From Desulfatitalea sp. BRH_c12 (GTDB lineage Bacteria > Desulfobacterota > Desulfobacteria > Desulfobacterales > Desulfosarcinaceae), in NCBI GenBank assembly GCA_000961655.1, contig LADR01000008.1, forward strand, positions 124,001 through 188,000: a stretch of DNA of 64,000 nucleotides, read 5' to 3'. Shown piece by piece: positions 33,762 to 44,971 of this stretch. The position numbers were made by a program, and so were the translations under genes. A model generated the notes under the pieces. The model worked only from the letters and a program-made list of their open reading frames with translations, did not search any database and was not told where the DNA came from. Position 1 is the stretch's first letter. Every line of letters begins with the position of its first letter.

Positions 33762-34703
33762 TCACTCCTCCGGATCTTCCCGTCGCATGCGTGGGTCGAG
33801 CACCTCTTCCATGGCGCGGCCCAGCATGTAAAATGCCAGGGTCAGCAGTGAAATGCAAATTCCCGGCGGTAGCAACCAATAAGGGGCTTGAAACATGTGA
33901 CCGGTTTTCCAGACCCATTGCAGCATCATGCCCCAACTGACCGTGCCCGGGTCACCGAAGCCCAGGAAGGCCAGCGCCGCTTCGATGATGATCGCCGAAG
34001 TGACCCGGAAGCTCATGTAGAGCAGTGCCAGCGGCAGCACATTGGGCAGGATGTGGCGTACCAGAATGCGCAGGTGAGACGCACCGGCAATTCTGGCCGA
34101 TTCGATAAACGGCCGGTGCTTGAGGGTCAGGGTCTGGGACCGGATCACCCGCGCCACGCCGGGCCAGCGAAACAGGGCGATTAACAGGACAATCGTCCAG
34201 ATGTTGAGCTGTCCGAAAAGCGCCGCCATCACCAGCAATACCAGCAAGGTCGGCATTACCATGATCATGTCGGCCAGGCGCATAAGCAACGTGTCGCCCC
34301 AGCGGCCGCTGTAGCCGGCCAGCATGCCGATCGCGGTTCCCAGAAAAATGCTCATGAAAGCGGCCGAGATGCCTACCATGAAAGCAATACGCGCCCCGGC
34401 GAGCAGTTGGCTGAAGATATCGCGTCCGATGAAATCGGTGCCCAGCCAGTGTCGCCAACTGGGTCCGCTGGTGTAGGAAATGATCGGGTCCACACCGCTC
34501 ATGGGGTTGTAGATCGGATCGATTAAAGGTGGGATGAAGCTGGCCAGCGCCATAAGAGCGAACAGGCCCAGCAGAATCATCCCGATGCGGCCGATCGTGT
34601 GCCGGCTCAGGACACCCCAACTCTCGGTAAAGGCGCTTTGCCAATACGCTTCGGGCAATGCCGCGCCGCTGGGGGCGGATCTGTTGTTCGTATCAGCACT
34701 CAT
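33762..34703 (-). CDS. Peptide ABC transporter permease (DppC type)
   Basis: 313 residues from ATG 34703, which overlaps the stop of dppB (TGATG). A long in-frame extension to 34859 lies inside dppB and is rejected. Membrane helices at about 40-60 and five more after 115. Loop motif ESARIAGASHLRILVRHILP is the EAA-like site for the ATPases. LGTDFIGRDIFSQLLAGARI is typical of DppC. Confidence 0.9.
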   Translation of the reverse strand: MSADTNNRSAPSGAALPEAYWQSAFTESWGVLSRHTIGRIGMILLGLFALMALASFIPPLIDPIYNPMSGVDPIISYTSGPSWRHWLGTDFIGRDIFSQLLAGARIAFMVGISAAFMSIFLGTAIGMLAGYSGRWGDTLLMRLADMIMVMPTLLVLLVMAALFGQLNIWTIVLLIALFRWPGVARVIRSQTLTLKHRPFIESARIAGASHLRILVRHILPNVLPLALLYMSFRVTSAIIIEAALAFLGFGDPGTVSWGMMLQWVWKTGHMFQAPYWLLPPGICISLLTLAFYMLGRAMEEVLDPRMRREDPEE

Positions 34704-35683
34704 CAGTAACGAATCCTCGGGTCCAGAAATGCATACATCACGTCCACCACCAAGTTGGCCGCCAAAACCACGGCGGCGATTAATAAAAAGCAGGTCAACG
34801 CCAGGGGGTAGTCGTTGTAGCTGACTGCTGAAACCAGTTCGCGGCCGATGCCGGGCCACGAAAACACCTTTTCGGTCAAAGCGCCCCCATTGATCGAAAA
34901 CGCAAGACTCAAGCCCACGCTGGTAATGACCGGCAGAGCGGCATTGGGCGAGGCATGGTGATCGCGAATGACTTTTTCGGGCAATCCTTTGGCACGGGCG
35001 GTATAGATGTAATCTTCACCAAGTGTTTCCAGCATGCTGCTGCGCATGATCAGCAGGTAGCTGCCGAAGTGCACCAGGAACAGCGTCAGCAGGGGCAACA
35101 CCATATGATAGAGAATATCCAAACCCTTAGAGGCCCAACCGCTGTGCGGATCGATCCATATTTCCGGAGAGATCATCCCGGTGATGGGAAACCACCCCCA
35201 GCGATAGCCGAAAAGCCAGATCATCAACATGGCAATCCAGGGCAGAAAGAGCGTGTGGCACACCAGGGCACCGATGGTGACGGCGGTATCGAGCGGTTGG
35301 CCTTTGCGCCAGGCAACGATTTTGCCCAACCACACGCCGGCCAGAGCCGACAGGATGACTGCCGTGGTGAAAAGCAAAATGGTATTGGGCAACCGGTCGG
35401 CGATAATCTCCGCAACCGGTTGACCATAGTGAAACGATACCCCGAATTCACCGGTGAAAAAGTTGCCCACAAAACGCAGATATTGTTGCCCAAGGGGAAG
35501 ATCGAGGCCCATATGGGCGATAAGTCTGGCTTCGTCCTCGGCGCTGAGGTTGGGATTGACCATGCGCGCCACCGGGTCGCCCGGTGCCAGGTGAAACAGG
35601 AAGAACAGGAGCGTCAGGATGACGAAAAAGCTGATCCCGATTTCGATCAGGCGACGCAAGATGTAGCGGTTCAGTGACATCAT
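34703..35683 (-). CDS. Peptide ABC transporter permease (DppB type)
   Basis: 326 residues from ATG 35683 (AGGA about 10 bases upstream; a TTG at 35710 and an ATG at 35692 are alternatives). First helix at 10-30 (RLIEIGISFFVILTLLFFLF), then HLAPGDPVARM, the standard DppB start. The loop ARAKGLPEKVIRDHHASPNA is the ATPase contact, and the C-terminus AFLDPRIRY is conserved. Overlaps dppC by one base. Confidence 0.9.
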   Translation of the reverse strand: MMSLNRYILRRLIEIGISFFVILTLLFFLFHLAPGDPVARMVNPNLSAEDEARLIAHMGLDLPLGQQYLRFVGNFFTGEFGVSFHYGQPVAEIIADRLPNTILLFTTAVILSALAGVWLGKIVAWRKGQPLDTAVTIGALVCHTLFLPWIAMLMIWLFGYRWGWFPITGMISPEIWIDPHSGWASKGLDILYHMVLPLLTLFLVHFGSYLLIMRSSMLETLGEDYIYTARAKGLPEKVIRDHHASPNAALPVITSVGLSLAFSINGGALTEKVFSWPGIGRELVSAVSYNDYPLALTCFLLIAAVVLAANLVVDVMYAFLDPRIRY

Positions 35684-35738
35684 GGCGGTCATTTCCTGTT
35701 TGGCGTCCAAGAGCGATCTGTGTCGTCCGGAGGGGGCT

Positions 35739-37502
35739 TTAGTCGTGCCGACCGGACGTGGGGCGAACCATATTGATCGACCATCGATTGCCGATTCCGT
35801 CGAGCATCGGCACCCAACCGTCGAAGCGAGCGGTGTAGGCGGCTTCGATCATGTTGGGCACATACAAAGGGACATAGGGCACGTCTTCCATGATGATCCG
35901 TTGCATCTCCATGATCATTTGATGGCGTATAACCGGGTCCATGGCGCATTGCGACTCTTCGGCAAGCCGGTCGAATGTCTCGTTGCGGTAGCCGCTCGTG
36001 TTCAATCCGCGCGTCTTATCGCCACTGGATTCGAAAAAAGATCCCAGATAATCCGGATCGATGGACAGCCGGCCGTATCCCAGAATGAACGCATCAAAGT
36101 CCCTGCGGTTTTTGATCTGGTCGATTAAAGCGCTGAATTCCATGGGGCGGGCCATGGCTGGAATCCCCAGGGCCTGCAGCCATTCCTGGATCATTGTGCC
36201 GCTGATCGCCCGGGCCGGGTCGTAATCGGCCGGCGGCGTCAGGATGATGACTTTTCCCATCGGCGTGCCATCGGGCCGGCGTAGTCCCTTTGCCGATTGA
36301 ATATCCCCCTGGGATCCAAAGGGTGGCATTTCCCAACTGTAGCCCGCCGATAACAACAGTTCATAGGCACGGCGGAGGCGCTCGCGATACTTGAGGCCTT
36401 CCCCGTAGCGGGGCACGTCGGGGTTGTGCCACTGCCGATTGCCCGGCGGAATGATAGAGAACAGTTGGGTGCCGCGTCCCTGCAGAAGGCGGTCGACGAG
36501 AAACCCTTTATCGATCATCAAGGCCACCGCCCGGCGCAGGTGCACATCCGAAAAGGGCGGACGGCGCGTGTTCATGCCCATGTAGTAGAGGGCGCTTTTC
36601 TGGCTGTCGAAAACTTTGATGTGGGGATTCTTGTTCAGTATCGCGACGTATCCGGGTTGAATCCCTTGCCAGAACATGTCGATATCGCCTTGGCGCAATG
36701 CCAGCATGGCCACATCGGTCGTGCCATAGACTTTGAACAAGAGCCCTTCGATATAGGGCCCCATTTTGCGGTCGGCGATGGTCTGCCCGGTCGCAAAATA
36801 ATGCGGATTTCTTTGCAGGTAAAGGTAGTCCCCCCGGCGCCACTGTTTAAAGAGAAAAGGTCCGGAGCCGACCGGGTCCTTCATGTTGTAATTCAGCAGA
36901 TAGGCCAGCGGTTTTGCGGATTCGCGCGCAGCCTGCGCAATGGGCTCCCATTGATGCGCCGGAACGATGGCCGCTTCGAGCGTGCGGCTCAGAAAAGTGG
37001 CCAGCGGTCTTTTCAGATGAACCACCACCGTGGCCGCATCAGGGGTTTCGATGCGCTCTACCTGCTTCCAGCGTGACGACAGCATCGGAATCTTGAACTC
37101 CTGGATCATTCGGGCAGTAAAAGCCACATCGGACGACGTCAGGGGCGTGCCGTCCGACCAATGAGCGGGGCGCAACGTGATGGTATAGGTTAACCGCGCG
37201 GCATCATAGACCGGCAGTGCCGCCGCCAGCCAGGGGACGGGCTCCAGGGTCTCGGGGTCGTCTTCATACAAGGGTTGGTAAATTTGGCGCAGCACGGTGC
37301 GCGAAGCGGCGTCACTGGCCAGCCAGACGTTGAGGGTGCGTGGCTCTTCGGGCAGCCCGATGCGCAGGATGCCTTCCACGGAAGGCTGCCTGCATGCGCC
37401 GGCCGTCACTGCCCATGCCAGCAGACACAAGAGCACCGCCCACCGATAGGGCTGGCTTCCATTAAAAAACGCGGGCGGCAGGTATTTGCGGTTCAGCTTC
37501 AT
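35739..37502 (-). CDS. Peptide ABC transporter, substrate-binding lipoprotein
   Basis: 587 residues from ATG 37502; GAGAAT precedes it. A lipoprotein signal ends in AVTAGAC, so it is anchored to the membrane. The body is SBP_bac_5 type: GLPEEPRTLNVWL, ITLRPAHWSDGTPLTSSDV, and GRLSIDPDYLGSFFES. It starts 40 bases inside the end of the glutathione-synthase-like gene, a strong sign of co-expression. Provides ligand to the permease genes that follow. Confidence 0.88.
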   Translation of the reverse strand: MKLNRKYLPPAFFNGSQPYRWAVLLCLLAWAVTAGACRQPSVEGILRIGLPEEPRTLNVWLASDAASRTVLRQIYQPLYEDDPETLEPVPWLAAALPVYDAARLTYTITLRPAHWSDGTPLTSSDVAFTARMIQEFKIPMLSSRWKQVERIETPDAATVVVHLKRPLATFLSRTLEAAIVPAHQWEPIAQAARESAKPLAYLLNYNMKDPVGSGPFLFKQWRRGDYLYLQRNPHYFATGQTIADRKMGPYIEGLLFKVYGTTDVAMLALRQGDIDMFWQGIQPGYVAILNKNPHIKVFDSQKSALYYMGMNTRRPPFSDVHLRRAVALMIDKGFLVDRLLQGRGTQLFSIIPPGNRQWHNPDVPRYGEGLKYRERLRRAYELLLSAGYSWEMPPFGSQGDIQSAKGLRRPDGTPMGKVIILTPPADYDPARAISGTMIQEWLQALGIPAMARPMEFSALIDQIKNRRDFDAFILGYGRLSIDPDYLGSFFESSGDKTRGLNTSGYRNETFDRLAEESQCAMDPVIRHQMIMEMQRIIMEDVPYVPLYVPNMIEAAYTARFDGWVPMLDGIGNRWSINMVRPTSGRHD

Positions 37503-38478
37503 ATTCTCGGGCCTTTTTCTCGACAAAATCAATTACAGGAACCTCTAATGTTGTACCATTCAATTCATTGATGCGGGGAATGCCACCGGGCGACACGCAA
37601 TTGATCTCAATCAACTTGTCCCCGATAACATCAATACCGACGAAATAAAGGCCGTCCGCGATCAGGCGTTTGCGTATTGCGGCGCATATCTCCTGTTCAC
37701 CGGGGGATAGTTGGTGTGGGGCAACCGTGGCGCCGGCTTTGACATTGGAACGGAATTCGCCAGGCAAGGGAATGCGCCGCATGGCTCCCAGAACGTCGCC
37801 ATTGAGAAGTAAAATACGGACATCGCCCTCACGTCCGGCTTCCAGATATTCTTGCACCATGATCGGTTCGCGATCCTCGTAGGGACGGCTGGAGCGTGTA
37901 TAATAATTGATCAATGAAACCAGATTCTCCCGATCGCGGGTACTTACTTTGATAACCCCTTCGCCCCCAAAGCGCTTCAGGGGCTTGATCACCATTGCGC
38001 CGCCGCACTCTTCGATATTTCGGACCAGACGTTTGGGATCGCGCGATATGTGGGTTTCGGGGATCAGATCAGGAAAGTTAAGCGCATACAATTTGCTGTT
38101 GCCCATAATTTGGCCCAAAGTATGGTTGATCATGAACACTTTGTGGTTGACCGGCCCGAGAAATTCCAGGACCTGATAATTGAGGGGCGGGTCTTTGCGC
38201 AGAAAAAGGGCATCCAGGTCGGTTATGGTTTCAAAGATCAACTCCTCTTTCTTGAGGCAATCGATCAGCGACAGCCAGTAAAGGGGTAAGGGCATATCCG
38301 GTGGTACCGAAATATCGCGCATGCGTGCCACCACCTGGTTGCCGCGAATATAGATATCGTGGGGTTCCAGGAAAAAGACCGTATGCTCCCGTTGATTGCA
38401 CTCATACATCAAATAGCTGGTCGTCTCATACAGTGGATCGATGAGCTCCAGTTTGTCCATCAGAAAAGCGATTCTCAT
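37462..38478 (-). CDS. ATP-grasp protein, glutathione synthase-like
   Basis: 338 residues from ATG 38478 (AAGGAAGG 7 bases upstream; a TTG at 38484 is possible). N-terminal MRIAFLMDKLELID and YECNQREHTVFFLEPHDIYI parallel bacterial GshB. The ATP-grasp part has VIKPLKRFGGEGV, IMVQEYLEAGREGDVRILLL, and the metal-binding GIDVIGDKLIEINCVSPGGI. GshB joins gamma-glutamylcysteine to glycine; a ligase for another peptide is possible. No gshA lies in the window. First gene of the operon with the peptide transporter; two selenocysteine redox genes flank the operon. Confidence 0.85.
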   Translation of the reverse strand: MRIAFLMDKLELIDPLYETTSYLMYECNQREHTVFFLEPHDIYIRGNQVVARMRDISVPPDMPLPLYWLSLIDCLKKEELIFETITDLDALFLRKDPPLNYQVLEFLGPVNHKVFMINHTLGQIMGNSKLYALNFPDLIPETHISRDPKRLVRNIEECGGAMVIKPLKRFGGEGVIKVSTRDRENLVSLINYYTRSSRPYEDREPIMVQEYLEAGREGDVRILLLNGDVLGAMRRIPLPGEFRSNVKAGATVAPHQLSPGEQEICAAIRKRLIADGLYFVGIDVIGDKLIEINCVSPGGIPRINELNGTTLEVPVIDFVEKKAREYEAEPQIPAARVF

Positions 38479-38773
38479 AATCAAGCCTTCCTTTAGCAGG
38501 TTTTAGAACATCCGGATACCACCGGACTACCGACTGTTTCGAAGGTGCCAATGCCGAAAAATTGAAGGAAGTGCTCTTATAAAGGGTCTTGCCGCCGTTA
38601 AACAATGCGCGGGCGAATTTTGGAACAATCAGCTTCCGATCTGAGAAATGGCCGGAGGCTGCTCGGCATCTCGATTTTTGATGCATAAAGGTTTAGCATG
38701 GTTTAACTTTGTCAACAAAGCAGCGTCATCACGTGATCATTCACCACCACCTTCATTAAGAAAGGAGAACGCC

Positions 38774-38989
38774 ATGGCCGATACGATCGTGATTTACGGG
38801 AAATCCGGCTGACCTTATACGCAGCAGGCCCGGGAGGCTTATGGGACGCACGACTACTATGATGTCAAGCAAGATGCCCCCAAAATGGATGAGATGCTCA
38901 AGCTCTCGAACGGCCGGCGCAAGGTGCCGGTCATCGTGAAGGACGGGCAGGTGACGGTCGGATTTAACGGCGGATCCTGAGGGGTTTAA
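38774..38989 (+). CDS. Glutaredoxin-like Uxx-star selenoprotein with two selenocysteines
   Basis: 71 residues from ATG 38774 (AAGGAG 6 bases upstream) to TAA 38987, passing two in-frame UGAs at 38810-38812 and 38978-38980. The frame reads MADTIVIYGKSG-U-PYTQQAREAY, then GRRKVPVIVKDGQVTVGF and ends NGGS-U-G-V-stop. The first U takes the place of the first Cys in the glutaredoxin CPYC motif; the rest keeps the thioredoxin fold and the cis-Pro turn (KVPVIV). The second U is third from the end, the feature for which the Uxx-star family is named. No Cys is present. It probably acts as a selenol-based disulfide or peroxide reductase. Transcribed away from the glutathione-synthase-like gene. Confidence 0.9.
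38826..38840 (+). promoter_or_regulatory. Candidate SECIS hairpin for the first UGA of the Uxx-star gene
   Basis: Five-bp stem AGGCC/GGCTT with one G-U pair and loop CGGGA. The loop begins 18 bases after the UGA and has G at its second position, as bacterial SECIS elements require. The stem is shorter than that of the second UGA. Confidence 0.55.
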
Positions 38990-38990
38990 T

Positions 38991-39009
38991 GCCGGCCCGG
39001 AGGGTCGGC
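38991..39009 (+). promoter_or_regulatory. Candidate SECIS hairpin for the C-terminal UGA, beyond the stop codon
   Basis: Eight-bp stem GCCGGCCC/GGGTCGGC (one G-U pair) with loop GGA, the same loop as in the peroxiredoxin gene. The loop starts 18 bases after the second UGA, the same distance as for the first. It lies wholly past the TAA stop, so it is free of coding constraint. No U-run follows, which argues against a terminator. Confidence 0.7.
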
Positions 39010-39042
39010 CGCAAATATCCCGGCTGAACGGAACAAAGGCAT

Positions 39043-39064
39043 GTTCCCGCCCAAGGGCGGGAAC
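39043..39064. repeat. Perfect hairpin, REP-like
   Basis: A 10-bp perfect stem (GTTCCCGCCC with GGGCGGGAAC) and a 2-base centre, 54 bases after the Uxx-star gene and 47 bases before the cydB stop on the other strand. No U-tract. It may limit read-through between the convergent genes. Confidence 0.55.
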
Positions 39065-39110
39065 GTCGCTTGGTCACCGGGGTTTGAAACCTGAAAGTCG
39101 TCTGCAACTA

Positions 39111-40106
39111 TCAATGATACCCGGCATCTGCGCTTACCTTGCCGCGGAAAACCCAGTAACTGTAAATGGTGTACGCAAGCACGACCGGTAGGATGAGCAG
39201 CGCGCCGATCAGCATGATAACCTGGGTCTCTGATTGGGCCGCGGCATCAAAAATGGTGATATCAGGCATCACGGCATATGGATAGACCCCCGACTGTAAA
39301 CCCAGGTAGGCTGAAAAAAACATGACTAGTGAATAGAGGAAGGGTTTGTATTCGGCTTTCGTTTTGATGCTGCGCAGCAACATGGCGAACCCAAAGGTTC
39401 CCAGCACGGGGAAGATCCACACAAAATAGATGCGTGGCGTGGTCCACCAGCGTGCCATCAGGTCGGGGGCTTTGTAGGGTGTCCATATGCTGACGACGAA
39501 CATGAAGGCTGCCACCGCCCAGGCCGCAAACCACGCCTGGCGGTAAGCGCGCTGTTGGACCTCTCCGGTGGTTTTGATAATCAGATAAGCAGCCCCCAAG
39601 AGCATATATCCGGCGATCAAGGCCAGGCCCACCATGATGTTGAAGGGGGTGAGCCAATCGAAAGCGCCGCCGGCGAAAAGATTGTTTTCAACGTGTATGC
39701 CGCTGACATAAGCTCCCAGCGTGAGTCCCTGAGCGAATGCGGCCACCAGGCAGCCGATTGCGAAAGCCCGGTTCCAGCCAGCTTTCCGGGTGGCATTGTG
39801 GCGGAATTCAAAGGCCACCCCGCGGAAGATCAACCCAAACAGAAAGGTGAAAAGAGGGATATACAGCGCACTGAAAAGGACTGTGTAAATCAGGGGAAAA
39901 ACGGCAAACAGGGCTGCACCGCCGAATACGATCCAGGTCTGATTGGCATCCCATACCGGGGCGATGCTGTCCATCATCATGTCACGCTGTTTTTCATCCT
40001 TGGCAAAGGGGAACAGAATGCCAACGCCCAAGCTGAAACCATCCAATATGACATACAGAATAATGACCACCGCTACCAAAAAAACCCATAGGTTGATCAA
40101 AGACAT
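39111..40106 (-). CDS. cydB: Cytochrome bd ubiquinol oxidase subunit II
   Basis: 331 residues with about nine membrane helices. N-terminal VILYVILDGFSLGVGILFPF, then DANQTWIVFGGAALFAVFPL and RGVAFEFRHN, are classic CydB motifs. AAGGAGG lies 9 bases before the start, three bases after the cydA stop. With CydA it forms the high-affinity terminal oxidase, useful to an anaerobe for removing O2. Confidence 0.95.
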   Translation of the reverse strand: MSLINLWVFLVAVVIILYVILDGFSLGVGILFPFAKDEKQRDMMMDSIAPVWDANQTWIVFGGAALFAVFPLIYTVLFSALYIPLFTFLFGLIFRGVAFEFRHNATRKAGWNRAFAIGCLVAAFAQGLTLGAYVSGIHVENNLFAGGAFDWLTPFNIMVGLALIAGYMLLGAAYLIIKTTGEVQQRAYRQAWFAAWAVAAFMFVVSIWTPYKAPDLMARWWTTPRIYFVWIFPVLGTFGFAMLLRSIKTKAEYKPFLYSLVMFFSAYLGLQSGVYPYAVMPDITIFDAAAQSETQVIMLIGALLILPVVLAYTIYSYWVFRGKVSADAGYH

Positions 40107-40109
40107 CGG

Positions 40110-41489
40110 TTAATCCCTCCTTGCCGCGAGATGATGGCCGCCGGCCTTGGTGCCCATCTGAACATGCGGAATGGGGCTTTCGAAATCCGGTCCCTTTTGC
40201 AAGGTCTTGAGCGTATAGTAAAAATAGGCGGCGCCGATGAGTCCGAAGAAGAGACCGAACATTATCAAAGACCAGACCACATTGCCCGCGGCGATGGGAC
40301 TGGCACCCTCGCTGGTACGCATCCAACCATAGACGATCCAGGGTTGGCGACCCATTTCAGCGGTGACCCAACCCAATATGGTGGCCACAAATCCCAAGGG
40401 CTGGACGGCCACCAGAATTTTGAGGAACAAGGGCGTATCGAACAGGCGCCCCCTTCTCCAAAGGATGGCAGCCCAGATCATGATGCCGAAGAAAAGGAAA
40501 CCAATGGCCACCATGATGCGGAAGGTCCAGAAATTAACGAGGACATTAGGGCGCTCGTCGGGGGAGAACTCCTTGAGCCCCTTGATCTGACCATCCAGCG
40601 AGTGCGTGATCAGCAAGCTGAGCATGTAGGGAATGCGGATCTCGAAGCGGTTTTCTTCGTTGGCATTGTCGGGTATGGCAAAGGCGATGAAGTCTGCGGG
40701 GCCGTCGGTATTGGTTTCCCAATGGGCCTCGATCGCCGCCAATTTGGTCGGCTGGTGTTTGGCAACCGACTGTCCCTTCAAATCACCCATAATGACCTGC
40801 AGGGGGGCGACGGCCGCTGCCATTATCAAGGCGATTGCCAGGGAGCGTTTGAAGAAGTGGGGGTTGCGTTTTTTAAGCAGAAAATAGGCGCTGATACCGG
40901 CGATAGCAAAGGCCGAGGTTTCATAGCTGGCCAGAAGCATATGGCCCAAATGGGTGGGAAACGCCGGGTTGAAAATTGCGTCGCGCCAACTGGTCAGCAT
41001 GAACACGCCATCCACATTTTCAAAACCGGCCGGTGTCTGCATCCAGGCATTGGCGGCCATGATCCAGAAGGCCGAAAAAGATGCACCCAGACCGACCAGG
41101 CAGGTGGAGATAAAATGCAGGGTCGGCGGCACGCGATTCCATCCGAAGAGCATGATACCGAGGAAACCGGCCTCGAGAAAAAACGCCGTCATGCCTTCGA
41201 ACGCCAGCATGGGCGCGATGACATTGGCCACGGTTTGCGAAAACACCGCGAAATTGGTGCCGAACTCGAACTCCAGGGTGATCCCGGTGACGACGCCCAC
41301 GGCAAAATGAATGGCGAAGATTTTCACCCAGAAGCGATACATGCGGTAGTACAGTTCATCGCGGGTTCTCAGCCACATAAGCTCGACCACCACCAGGAAG
41401 ATCGCCAGGCCGATCGTCAAGGTCGGGAAAAGGATGTGGAAGGCGGTGGTTAATCCAAACTGGATGCGCGAGAGGAGCACGGTTTCCAT
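40110..41489 (-). CDS. cydA: Cytochrome bd ubiquinol oxidase subunit I
   Basis: 459 residues from ATG 41489, the expected family start (METVLLSRIQFGLTTAFH with heme ligand His18); a reading from 41585 adds unrelated residues. The quinol-site motif EMGRQPWIVYGWMRT is present, and the Q-loop is of the short type. Several helices with FEGMTAFFLEAGFLGIMLFG. Upstream lies a repeat copy (41656-41715). No strong ribosome site or operator was seen. Confidence 0.95.
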   Translation of the reverse strand: METVLLSRIQFGLTTAFHILFPTLTIGLAIFLVVVELMWLRTRDELYYRMYRFWVKIFAIHFAVGVVTGITLEFEFGTNFAVFSQTVANVIAPMLAFEGMTAFFLEAGFLGIMLFGWNRVPPTLHFISTCLVGLGASFSAFWIMAANAWMQTPAGFENVDGVFMLTSWRDAIFNPAFPTHLGHMLLASYETSAFAIAGISAYFLLKKRNPHFFKRSLAIALIMAAAVAPLQVIMGDLKGQSVAKHQPTKLAAIEAHWETNTDGPADFIAFAIPDNANEENRFEIRIPYMLSLLITHSLDGQIKGLKEFSPDERPNVLVNFWTFRIMVAIGFLFFGIMIWAAILWRRGRLFDTPLFLKILVAVQPLGFVATILGWVTAEMGRQPWIVYGWMRTSEGASPIAAGNVVWSLIMFGLFFGLIGAAYFYYTLKTLQKGPDFESPIPHVQMGTKAGGHHLAARRD

Positions 41490-41838
41490 AAAATAATGTC
41501 CAAATTTTTTAAGGGTCGCCGTTGTGCACCATCTTTTGTCGCAACGGAGGGATATGCGCCGATGGTGGGTGAGGAAAAAAACCAATCGTCTATAATAATC
41601 ACTTGCAGAGTACTGGCAAGCACTGGGGTGAGCCGATGAATGGATTTTATGAATAACTCAACTTTCGGGATTGGCACGTAGTGAGGTGATCCGGGCGTGT
41701 TGTTCGCGCCACCATCCAGTCGTATCACGCATTGCGTGCAGATCGCCTGTGCGGAAAAATGCGGTTTGTTTGCCGGTTGCGATATGGGCGGAATTGGCTT
41801 ACAGTGTCACCACATGTGATCAAAAGGGAGAAGTGGTA
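41490..41838. other. Intergenic region, 349 bases
   Basis: Divergent upstream region of cydAB and of the Deg-type protease gene. It holds one inverted copy of repeat R2 (41656-41715). GGGAG at 41826-41830 is the protease ribosome site. Nothing else recognised. Confidence 0.5.
41656..41715 (-). repeat. Dispersed repeat R2, inverted copy
   Basis: Reverse complement of the R2 unit: ACTCAACTTTCGGGATTGGC, ACG, GAGGTGATCCGGGCG. It matches 8333-8402 in reverse and 47383-47430 directly. Sits in the spacer between divergent genes. Confidence 0.7.
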
Positions 41839-43389
41839 ATGCATCGAATAAAAACAGGTTTTGTAAAGTTCCGATGGACCGTGGCCCTGCTGATCGGGTG
41901 CTTGCTGCCTCTCCAGGCGCTCGGCGCCGATCGCATCGGAACACTTCGCCATAGTGTCGTGCGAATCTATACGGTGGCGCAGTCCCCGGACTATCTCGTC
42001 CCCTGGTCTGAAGGCATGTCCATGGAAAGCTGGGGGACCGGCTTTATTGTTTCGGGCCGCCGGATTCTGACCAATGCCCATGTGGTCAGCAATGCCCGTT
42101 TTATCACCCTGGAAAAAGAGGGTGATTCGCGGCGTTACGAAGCGCGGGTTAAATTCATCGCCCATGATTGTGATCTGGCCATGCTGGAAGTGGTAGACGC
42201 TGCCTTTTTCGAAGGTACAACGGCATTGCGCCTGGGGGATGTGCCGGAACTGGAGTCGATGGTCACGGTTCTCGGGTATCCGATCGGAGGCGATCGGCTG
42301 TCCGTCACCCGCGGCATTGTTTCGCGCATCGACTATCGGGGATATGCGCACTCCGGTGTGGACAGCCATTTGGTGGTGCAGATCGATGCGGCCATCAACC
42401 CGGGCAACAGCGGCGGACCCGTCATTCAGGACAATGTTGTGGTCGGGGTCGCGTTCCAAGGCTTCAGCGGCATGGTGGCCCAGAATGTCGGGTACATGAT
42501 CCCGACACCGGTGGTCGAGCGCTTCTTGCGGGATGTTGCCGATGGCCGCTACGACCTGTATGTGGATGTCGGATTTCAGTACTTCCCATTGATCAATACA
42601 ACCCACCGCCGTGCTTTAGGATTGGAGACGGGCGACTTCGGAGTCATGGTGGGCGAGGTGATACGCGCCGGAGCGGCCCACGATTACCTGCAAACCGGGG
42701 ATGTACTGCTGGCCATCGACAATCGTCCGATATTCAGCGATGGCCGGGTGGCCATGAACAAGGATCGCCTGATGCTCAACGAGGTGGTCGAACGTAAATT
42801 CAAGGGCGACACGGTACGGTTGAAACTGCTGCGCGCCGGCCGGGAGATGACCCTCGACATCCCATTGATGACGCCCTGGCCTTATTTGATGCAGGCCAAC
42901 CAGTACGATGCGCGGCCACGTTTTCTTGTTTTCGGCGGATTGGTTTTTCAGCCGCTGTCCAGTTCTTTTTTTGCGGCCTTGCCGGACAAACCGGTGACCC
43001 TGCGATATTACTACACCCAGTTCCTTGAAGAAGAACTTTACCTGGAGCACCCCGAGATCGTAGTGATCAGCAAAATTCTGCCTGATCCGACCACGAGTTA
43101 CCTGGAGAATTTTCAGTACGCGATGGTGGACCAAGTCAACGATGTTAAAATATGGGGCATGGCGGATCTGAATGCTGCGCTGTCAAAACCGGCCGAATTT
43201 TATGTGATTCGACTGGTGGGCGATCCTCAGCCTCTGGTGTTGGAGGCCAAGGCCGTGCAGTCCGCCAGTGAGCGCATCTCCCGACAATACGCGATCACTC
43301 AAAATTCTTTTTTGCAAGGCGGCATTGTTCCGCCGGAGTGGATGGATGCGCTCAAAGCGGCGGCGGTGGCTAAGTCAGCAGTGAAGTAA
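41839..43389 (+). CDS. Deg-type trypsin-like serine protease with PDZ region
   Basis: 516 residues from ATG 41839 (GGGAG 8 bases upstream). A signal peptide ends at ALGA-DR, so it is exported. The catalytic triad is complete: His81 in TNAHVV, Asp112 in DCDLAML, Ser191 in GNSGGP. A PDZ-like part (about 270-350, GDVLLAIDNRPI) and a further 150-residue C-terminal domain follow. This layout matches the long, plant-DEG-like bacterial proteases of periplasmic quality control. The next gene is a paralogue that has lost the triad. Confidence 0.88.
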   Translation: MHRIKTGFVKFRWTVALLIGCLLPLQALGADRIGTLRHSVVRIYTVAQSPDYLVPWSEGMSMESWGTGFIVSGRRILTNAHVVSNARFITLEKEGDSRRYEARVKFIAHDCDLAMLEVVDAAFFEGTTALRLGDVPELESMVTVLGYPIGGDRLSVTRGIVSRIDYRGYAHSGVDSHLVVQIDAAINPGNSGGPVIQDNVVVGVAFQGFSGMVAQNVGYMIPTPVVERFLRDVADGRYDLYVDVGFQYFPLINTTHRRALGLETGDFGVMVGEVIRAGAAHDYLQTGDVLLAIDNRPIFSDGRVAMNKDRLMLNEVVERKFKGDTVRLKLLRAGREMTLDIPLMTPWPYLMQANQYDARPRFLVFGGLVFQPLSSSFFAALPDKPVTLRYYYTQFLEEELYLEHPEIVVISKILPDPTTSYLENFQYAMVDQVNDVKIWGMADLNAALSKPAEFYVIRLVGDPQPLVLEAKAVQSASERISRQYAITQNSFLQGGIVPPEWMDALKAAAVAKSAVK

Positions 43390-43450
43390 TGGCCGCGGCA
43401 TCGGTCAGCCGGCGTTTGAAATCCAAAATAAACAGTAAAAAAAATACATT

Positions 43451-44971
43451 ATGAGAGTTGTTATGCCCCTATTCACAGCATGGTTGCGTTTTTTTGGGAT
43501 CGGCTTGGCTCTTTTGTCGCTGGCCGGATGCAGTTCTCTGATGAAGGAAGGCCGTGATACCTGGCCTCCCGTGGCCGCCCAGCAATCCCTGGTGCGTGTG
43601 ACCGTCACCAGTCAAAGCTACATATCTCATCGGCCCTGGCAGCAGCGCCGGCCGGTGACCCAGACGGCTATAGGGGTCATCGTCGATGACGGCAAGGTGC
43701 TGGTCAACGGTCTGCTGGTGGCCGATCATCGTTATATTGAACTGGAAACACTCGACACACAGCGCAAGCAGCCGGCACGCGTGACGGTCGTCGATTATGA
43801 AGCCAACCTGGCGCTGGTTGAGCCTGTCGACCGCACCTTTCTTGCCGGGCGCAAACCGCTGGCTTTGGCGGAAGAAGCTTCTCTGGGCGATCAACTGACG
43901 GTTTGGCAAGTTAAACCCAACGGTGATGTCGTCCCCAGCGATGGTCAGTTGACATCCGTGGAACTGGGCGTTTTCATCCAGGATAATTTTTTTCTGACCT
44001 ATCGCCTCAACAGTGCTTTGCAGTATCGCTTCAGCAATCAGACCTTGCCGGTTGTCAAGGATCAGGCCCTGGCGGGTCTGGTGTTGCGTCAGAATGCCGC
44101 TGGACAGACCATCGAAGTGATCGCCACTTCGGTGATCGATCATTTTCTGAAAGAAGCCCGCGATGGCGAGTATCATGGATTTCCGACCGCCGGTTTCCAT
44201 TACGGTCCGATGCTGGACCCGCAACTGCGTCGCTATATCGGTTTGCCCGATCAAACCAGCGGGATCTACGTGCAAAAAGTGATCAAGGGGGGGCCGGCCG
44301 ACCGCGCCGGATTGAAAGCCGGCGATGTCATCACACGCATGGGGGACTTTCCGATTTCCAACACCGGCCAATTCGACCATCCGCGCTATGGCAAGACATC
44401 CATCGCGCACTTGATGCGAACGCTATCCTTTGTAGGCGATAACATGGCGTTGCAGGTATATCGCAACCATCAAGCAAGGGAGATAGGCGTCGTTCTGGAT
44501 CACCGCCGGCCCGATGAGTATCTGGTCCCGCCCTACTCACTGGATCAAAAGCCCGAATATCTGATTGTCGGTGGCTTGGTCATGCAGGAGCTGACGGTGT
44601 CTTACCTGCGTGAATATGGTAGCGAGTGGACTGCCAACGCCCCCATCCATCTGCTTTATTACCAACAAAATCAGGATTATCTGAATGGCGACGGCCGCGA
44701 TAAGATCGTTATTTTGTCCGATGTTGTCCCCACCTCGTACACGATTGGCTACGAGAACCTTTCCAATCTGGTGGTGGTCAGCGTCAACGGTCGCAAGATC
44801 GGCAAGTTGAACGATGTACGCACCGCTTTGGCTTCGCCGGTAGACGGATTTCACAAAATAGAGGTCCAGCAGCATCCCAAAATGCTCTATATCGATGCAA
44901 CGGAACTTCCGCAGATTCACCAGTTGATCCAGCAGCGGTATGGCATTCCGATTCCATCGCTGACACCGTGA
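43451..44971 (+). CDS. Catalytically dead Deg-protease paralogue, lipoprotein
   Basis: 506 residues. A lipoprotein signal ends LLSLAGC (Cys27). It aligns along its length with the protease just upstream: KVLVNGLLVAD against RILTNAHVVSN, YEANLALVE against DCDLAMLE, and QTLPVVKDQALAGLVL against SGGPVIQDNVVVGVAF. All three catalytic positions are replaced (His to Leu88, Asp to Asn119, Ser to Gln197). The PDZ region (GPADRAGLKAGDVITRMGD) and C-terminal domain are kept. A membrane-tethered scaffold or adaptor of the active enzyme is likely (inference). Starts 61 bases after it. Confidence 0.85.
   Translation: MRVVMPLFTAWLRFFGIGLALLSLAGCSSLMKEGRDTWPPVAAQQSLVRVTVTSQSYISHRPWQQRRPVTQTAIGVIVDDGKVLVNGLLVADHRYIELETLDTQRKQPARVTVVDYEANLALVEPVDRTFLAGRKPLALAEEASLGDQLTVWQVKPNGDVVPSDGQLTSVELGVFIQDNFFLTYRLNSALQYRFSNQTLPVVKDQALAGLVLRQNAAGQTIEVIATSVIDHFLKEARDGEYHGFPTAGFHYGPMLDPQLRRYIGLPDQTSGIYVQKVIKGGPADRAGLKAGDVITRMGDFPISNTGQFDHPRYGKTSIAHLMRTLSFVGDNMALQVYRNHQAREIGVVLDHRRPDEYLVPPYSLDQKPEYLIVGGLVMQELTVSYLREYGSEWTANAPIHLLYYQQNQDYLNGDGRDKIVILSDVVPTSYTIGYENLSNLVVVSVNGRKIGKLNDVRTALASPVDGFHKIEVQQHPKMLYIDATELPQIHQLIQQRYGIPIPSLTP

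Follow-up and report, generated by a model that had tools for sequence, protein, structure and literature searches.

Within the 64,000-nucleotide stretch of Desulfatitalea sp. BRH_c12 DNA analysed here (the window), a gene on the forward strand at positions 38774..38989 was identified, from its sequence, as a further member of the catalogued NF041114 family, and both of its in-frame UGA codons are very probably read as selenocysteine (Sec). The second of these codons is followed by a SECIS-like hairpin situated past the stop codon. In our judgement it is likely that a natural bacterial SECIS can sit wholly in the 3' UTR, and that UXX-star genes have one immediately after their stop, against the coding-region rule given in reviews and at a spacing such that in 30 of 78 genes one UGA would be read as Sec and the UGA nine nucleotides on as stop.

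The gene, assigned to UXX-star selenoprotein family 1 by frame reading, NF041114 and Pfam, comprises 71 codons and a TAA, the true stop on frame reading (38987..38989, forward strand), with two UGA codons read as Sec. A Shine-Dalgarno-like AAAGGAG (38761..38767, forward) lies 6 nt upstream of the ATG, in agreement with the good ribosome site described in a first-pass annotation of this DNA, and translation with TGA as U reproduced the 71-residue frame claimed there, broken by UGA at 38810 and 38978 only. Frame reading and the family alignment put the first of these (UGA1, 38810..38812, Sec13) at the glutaredoxin redox-Cys position within G-U-P-Y-T, a placement that the annotation had proposed and that the alignment and the NF041114 match uphold. 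The second (UGA2, 38978..38980, Sec69) gives, by frame reading and from the family genes, the third residue from the C-terminus in U-G-V-stop. No Cys codon occurs in the frame 38774-38989 when TGA is translated as U. Among table-11 ORFs of at least 60 aa within 34000-44000, none overlaps the gene, the nearest ones ending at 38686 and starting at 39111; the absence of an ordinary frame of more than 60 codons had been correctly noted, and we agree with the earlier view that a gene finder treating UGA as a stop would miss the gene. A glutathione synthetase gene (37462-38484, reverse strand) adjoins it divergently, and cydB and cydA, for cytochrome bd oxidase (39111-41585, reverse strand), lie convergently on its other side.

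The translated protein matched NF041114.2 (NCBIfam, UXX-star selenoprotein family 1) over the full profile (1-70 of 70) with 111.4 bits against a cut-off of 72 (E 1.7e-32), so that the Uxx-star label given in the annotation was right. It also exceeded the cut-offs of the umbrella model NF041212 (83.2 bits against 66) and of Pfam Glutaredoxin PF00462 (37.5 bits against a gathering cut-off of 22.9). Two other models were rejected, the classical bacterial glutaredoxin 3 (TIGR02181; 31.7 bits, cut-off 90) and the HUGP/GUXX-star fusion selenoprotein (NF045501; 45.2 bits, cut-off 325). With TGA read as Sec, the protein contains the UxxT motif and the two Sec of the family, as U13-P-Y-T16 and U69, and the gene ends in the C-terminal U-x-x-stop, as U-G-V-TAA. 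A 2026 review, in the sections considered here, lists a 'Distant Grx-like protein 1 (UXX-star selenoprotein family 1)' with the motif UxxT and two Sec (PMC13188914), and Distant Grx-like protein 1 with UxxT also appears in the list of PMC9312934, as far as its text was available. Because family, motif and both Sec are already catalogued in these sources, the novelty of the window gene is limited and had been overrated by the annotation. In its full-profile match, UxxT motif, two Sec and C-terminal U-x-x-stop the protein is like the rest of the family, and no protein difference was found. In contrast, the second SECIS past the stop, and a Sec UGA followed 9 nt later by a UGA stop, are absent from those portions of the literature descriptions of the family that were examined.

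Matches to NF041114 were found in 18 of 40 close genomes, its own included (all 18 above the cut-off), in 161 of 291 genomes sampled at the level of the order (153 above) and in 134 of 395 sampled at that of the phylum (100 above), three sets that overlap; two named relatives are a Desulfobacterales MAG and a Desulfobacteraceae MAG. Length was identical in six of the seven same-genus relatives tried, and in all six of these the differences fell mostly at third codon positions. Between the window gene and one family gene (L026), for example, the interval from UGA1 to UGA2 showed 10, 9 and 23 changes at codon positions 1, 2 and 3, respectively. A chance or decayed frame containing two real stops, which two in-frame UGA codons within 72 codons might bring to mind, is hardly credible in the face of the full-profile match, the bias of changes towards third positions and the occurrence of the gene above the family cut-off in more than half of the genomes from the order. 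Two genomes had more than one copy, a same-genus genome (G001) with two on different contigs (L029 and L038) and another (G649) with two family genes near each other (L085).

Two sets of family genes were then compared at the two UGA positions. The main set comprised 78 genes from 77 loci, mostly the best-scoring and including the window copy (L001 and L002 carried no NF041114 score), and the weak-end set comprised 40 further places picked for a low score or few TGA, 35 of them above the cut-off (27 placed by script and 8 read from translations). In the main set, site 2 was TGA in 78/78 genes, in a count open to Sec or Cys, and site 1 held TGA in 71 genes and a Cys codon in the other 7. Weak-end genes above the cut-off had TGA at site 2 in 35/35 cases, with 16 Sec and 19 Cys at site 1. 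Homologues with a stop or an unrelated residue at either site, named in the annotation as grounds for doubt, did not appear among the combined 113 genes, the window's included, in which site 2 was TGA in 113/113 and site 1 was split between TGA (87) and Cys (26); because of the way in which the weak-end places were picked, the ratio of 87:26 is no population estimate. The scripted site-2 count of 105/105 was not free, the script locating site 2 by its UGA, and the 78/78 of the main set is the independent count. In these 113 genes the C-terminal Sec is more conserved than the active-site Sec.

The absence of Cys claimed for the window protein held for it and for 75/78 main-set genes, which lack any other Cys, and several weaker-scoring members of the weak-end set carry a second active-site Cys, as UxxC or CxxC. 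Some members, among them L108, L116, L119-L124 and L130, have an insert of more than 10 residues ahead of the C-terminal Sec and tails such as U-P-V, U-P-I, U-S-V or U-A-V, several with UxxC or CxxC, and possibly form a distinct subgroup. Below the family cut-off and uncounted were L110, with a C-terminal TGA and Gly at site 1, and L111-L114, without a C-terminal Sec.

With just two residues after UGA2, this codon might be the real stop, UGA1 alone encoding Sec and the protein ending Gly-Gly-Ser. We regard this as very improbable, since the codon is TGA in every one of the 113 genes whereas the terminating codon differs between genes (32 TAA, 30 TGA and 16 TAG among 78), two residues follow in 75/78 genes, most often Gly-Val (55/78), and a covarying hairpin stands at the expected distance.

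The genome of the organism (98.45% complete) encodes the Sec decoding machinery that the annotation had suggested looking for, with tRNA-Sec (72.4 bits), SelB (379.5 bits), SelA (613.8 bits) and SelD (372.6 bits), all above curated cut-offs; the SelD match contains one in-frame TGA (L096, G000:C66:111700-112626) and is probably a selenoprotein itself. SelB was found at E ≤1e-60 in 39 of the 40 close genomes, its own included, with 37 above the cut-off, and its presence is not discriminating because it occurs irrespective of the family gene. The sole close genome without a SelB match (G035) is 83% complete and carries a family gene. Four of the 40 genomes (G007, G017, G034 and G037) had two SelB matches above the cut-off, the second clearly weaker, and these are possible paralogues. 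A search of the window's own genome with RF00031 gave no matches, nor did the controls, and an Rfam scan of the window gave no family above threshold.

The bacterial SECIS rule in the consulted part of PMC13188914 calls for a loop of 3-9 nt, a stem of 4-16 bp, G in the first two loop positions and a distance of 16-37 nt from the UGA. After UGA2 of the window gene such a hairpin was found (38991..39009, forward strand, GCCGGCC-CGGAG-GGTCGGC; hairpin 2), with 7 pairs, one of them G-T, and the loop CGGAG starting at nt 18. It lies wholly 3' of the TAA, beginning two bases after the stop (38987-38989), and hence outside the coding region. A stricter rule, demanding an unbroken stem of 6 or more pairs, 3 or more of them G-C, and a loop of 3-9 nt that starts at nt 17-27 and has a G among its first two nucleotides, fitted 64/78 family genes after UGA2, 14/78 not fitting, and 4/155 control ends, taken at the same offset from other ORFs of at least 180 codons in the same loci. 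Stem scores averaged 17.8 against 10.0 on shuffling, with 59/78 genes above their own 95th percentile, and 156 control ends averaged 9.6, 2.6% of them reaching the family median. The loop centre of the best stem lay 19-25 nt after UGA2 in 77/78 genes (range searched 14-30), and in 75/78 a G stood among the first two loop nucleotides, a feature that the search did not demand.

The hairpin also covaries. In an alignment of 70/78 hairpins, the other 8 being omitted, the covariation score was 0.537 against 0.225 shuffled (0/500) and at most 0.134 when slid, and double-change cells numbered 118 against 43.7, in windows placed around the best stem, a choice that itself promotes pairing. The inner six pairs carried the signal, the outer two being unpaired in most hairpins; counted by pairs, double changes did not exceed the shuffled level (8 against 7.7). 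A covariance model built from hairpin 2 (6 pairs, 25 positions) was too small for specific searches; in the window it gave 13.9 bits past the stop and 13.4 and 10.8 at two other nearby inverted repeats, and over the loci it recovered 39/78 expected places at E ≤2, most being its own training sequences, with 4 elsewhere or on the opposite strand. A second GC-rich inverted repeat, GTTCCCGCCC...GGGCGGGAAC, is present at 39041-39066 of the window, between the gene and the convergent cydB, and has no terminator score.

A hairpin directly past a short gene, with the next gene in the window convergent, could also be a transcription terminator or another RNA signal rather than a SECIS. We consider this improbable, as a T-rich tail followed only 4/64 of the hairpins fitting the strict rule, no terminator-like site was found at 38480-39110, and the constant loop distance, the loop G and the rarity of such hairpins at control gene ends, all described above, argue against it. 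A SECIS serving UGA2 is the preferred reading, although its placement departs from what is reported, insofar as the sources could be consulted: bacterial SECIS elements are described as lying in the translated region (PMC11431864), typically in coding regions (PMC13188914) or 'often in the ORF' (PMC10778597), and placement in the 3' UTR appears in PMC11431864 and PMC10778597 as an engineering device. The engineered case in these two papers, thioredoxin reductase in E. coli, shares with the UXX-star genes a Sec near the C-terminus and a bacterial SECIS in the 3' UTR; it is, however, an unrelated enzyme in an artificial arrangement, whereas in the UXX-star family the arrangement is natural and recurs across members. 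The literature searched on this point, consulted in part, yielded no natural bacterial SECIS downstream of a stop codon, although one may have been published.

In the 30 family genes that stop at TGA (L042, L047, L051 and L053 among them), the gene ends Sec-x-x-UGA and the first base of the stop UGA lies 9 nt beyond that of the Sec UGA. UGA stops are not avoided in these loci, since 62 of their 157 larger ORFs end in TGA. The third UGA was taken as the true stop because the frame beyond it stays open for 4 to 498 codons, up to a further stop or to where the locus ends. From this third UGA to the loop centre of hairpin 2 the distance is about 11-13 nt, which is under the 16-37 nt range stated in the available text of PMC13188914. 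Distance to the hairpin may thus decide whether a UGA is read as Sec or as stop.

After UGA1 the same rule, as given in the accessible part of PMC13188914, picks out a hairpin inside the ORF (38826..38840, forward strand, AGGCC-CGGGA-GGCTT; hairpin 1), with 5 pairs, the search minimum, one of them G-T, and the loop CGGGA starting at nt 19. Its evidence comes from third codon positions in genes whose codons 6-9 downstream of UGA1 encode Ala-Arg-x-Ala, 84/105 genes being usable. The third bases of Ala and x, which face each other across the predicted loop, were paired in 73/73 genes with Sec at site 1 (Sec-type; T-A 39, C-G 32, T-G 2), Watson-Crick pairs numbering 71 against 36.8 expected on shuffling. 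Those with Cys at site 1 (Cys-type) had them paired in 4/11 cases (Fisher p 7e-8, a value that ignores kinship and overstates independence because the genes are related). The Arg codon in Sec-type genes was CGT, CGG or AGG only, giving a loop with G-T or G-G, and was CGC in 3/11 Cys-type genes. A second facing third-position pair showed a weaker contrast (paired in 62/73 Sec-type and 7/11 Cys-type genes). As Ala, Arg and Ala are identical in both types, the third-base pairing points to a constraint on the RNA. Overall stem strength separated poorly: the hairpin 1 score was barely higher than on shuffling (11.4 against 9.0; 7/78 above their own 95th percentile) and differed little by type (Sec 11.5 against Cys 10.2, p 0.04), and the folding energy of the 45 nt downstream of UGA1 showed no distinct signal (mean z -0.4).

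An AlphaFold2 model built from 73 sequences (mean pLDDT 90.6) comprised strand-helix-strand-helix-strand-strand, an order that we take to be that of a glutaredoxin minus its last helix, and the model has the glutaredoxin fold with that helix missing. Foldseek against the PDB gave mostly glutaredoxins among the 50 hits listed (query TM-score 0.55-0.78, best E 0.001), with no hit at E ≤0.001 by Foldseek's own count. The nearest sequences with a solved structure were likewise mostly glutaredoxins, and a profile search of PDB sequences was led by 7c12 and 7c10 (E about 2e-8), named cGrx1 and also among the fold matches; we take cGrx1 to be the selenoprotein glutaredoxin of Clostridium/Alkaliphilus oremlandii. 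It is the best solved-structure sequence match to the window protein, but its motif CPHC has Cys at the fourth position, where the window protein has Thr, and the window protein, unlike cGrx1, carries a further Sec close to its C-terminus. Across the 73 proteins of the alignment, sites 13 and 69 were always Sec or Cys, and Lys10, Pro14, Thr16 and Pro52, presumably residues usual in glutaredoxins, were invariant.

The gene neighbourhood, judged by the nearest ORFs on both sides, had no functional theme. The nearest ORF of at least 80 codons was taken on each side, real or not, 6/78 genes being left out, and the counts are for this reason lower bounds: a TIGR00730 gene downstream in at least 22/69, an HPr-like gene upstream in at least 19/71 and a cytochrome bd subunit II gene downstream in at least 3/69, the window's included. 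For the window copy a small ORF (38429-38686) was picked in place of the glutathione synthetase gene.

The annotation's suggestion that two selenols carry out the redox work is plausible, and a two-selenol couple would be the simplest reading of sites 13 and 69. Alternatively, the protein might use two selenol ligands to bind or hand over a selenium species, a soft metal or a metalloid in place of reducing disulfides or peroxides. The invariance of the glutaredoxin-like Lys10, Pro14, Thr16 and Pro52, as we understand these residues, speaks against such a role, as does the lack of a metal-resistance theme in the 25 most frequent Pfam families of the immediately flanking ORFs. In its favour, sites 1 and 2 are the sole Sec or Cys in 75/78 genes, and PMC13188914, in the part consulted, allows that Sec in the UXX-star family may be metal-binding ligands or meet unknown substrates. 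On balance we consider a metal or selenium role unlikely, though not negligible.

We favour a redox protein, and propose that the gene encodes a minimal glutaredoxin fold minus the last helix, ending Sec-Gly-Val. UGA1 would be read as Sec with the help of the hairpin within the ORF and UGA2 with that of the hairpin starting just past the stop, the two being alike in that the loop would start 18-19 nt after the respective UGA. Sec13 would then act as the attacking selenol and Sec69, on a glycine-rich tail, would resolve it through an intramolecular diselenide, relatives with Cys at site 1 forming a Cys-Sec bond instead, and the protein may act as a small oxidoreductase. Family membership, the Sec machinery, the conservation of both sites and the covarying hairpins are established at the level of sequence, and the identity of the gene and the decoding of both its UGA codons as Sec can be held with great confidence. 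The explanation as a whole, a functional UXX-star selenoprotein family 1 gene with both UGA codons decoded with hairpin help and two-Sec redox function, appears highly likely, and the diselenide-type chemistry of Sec13 and Sec69 as proposed has about an even chance of being correct.

The gene belongs to a catalogued double selenoprotein family that is common in the sample from the order Desulfobacterales and for which the literature examined, in the portions available, gives no characterisation. Its relatives offer a natural experiment on UGA decoding, some of them having a stop UGA nine bases beyond a UGA for Sec. A SECIS past the stop is free of coding constraint and covaries openly, and in Cys-type genes the third-position pairing of hairpin 1 is relaxed. 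The distance rule for SelB is directly testable with natural sequences of the family, and a 71-residue Cys-free protein would be a compact model for diselenide chemistry.
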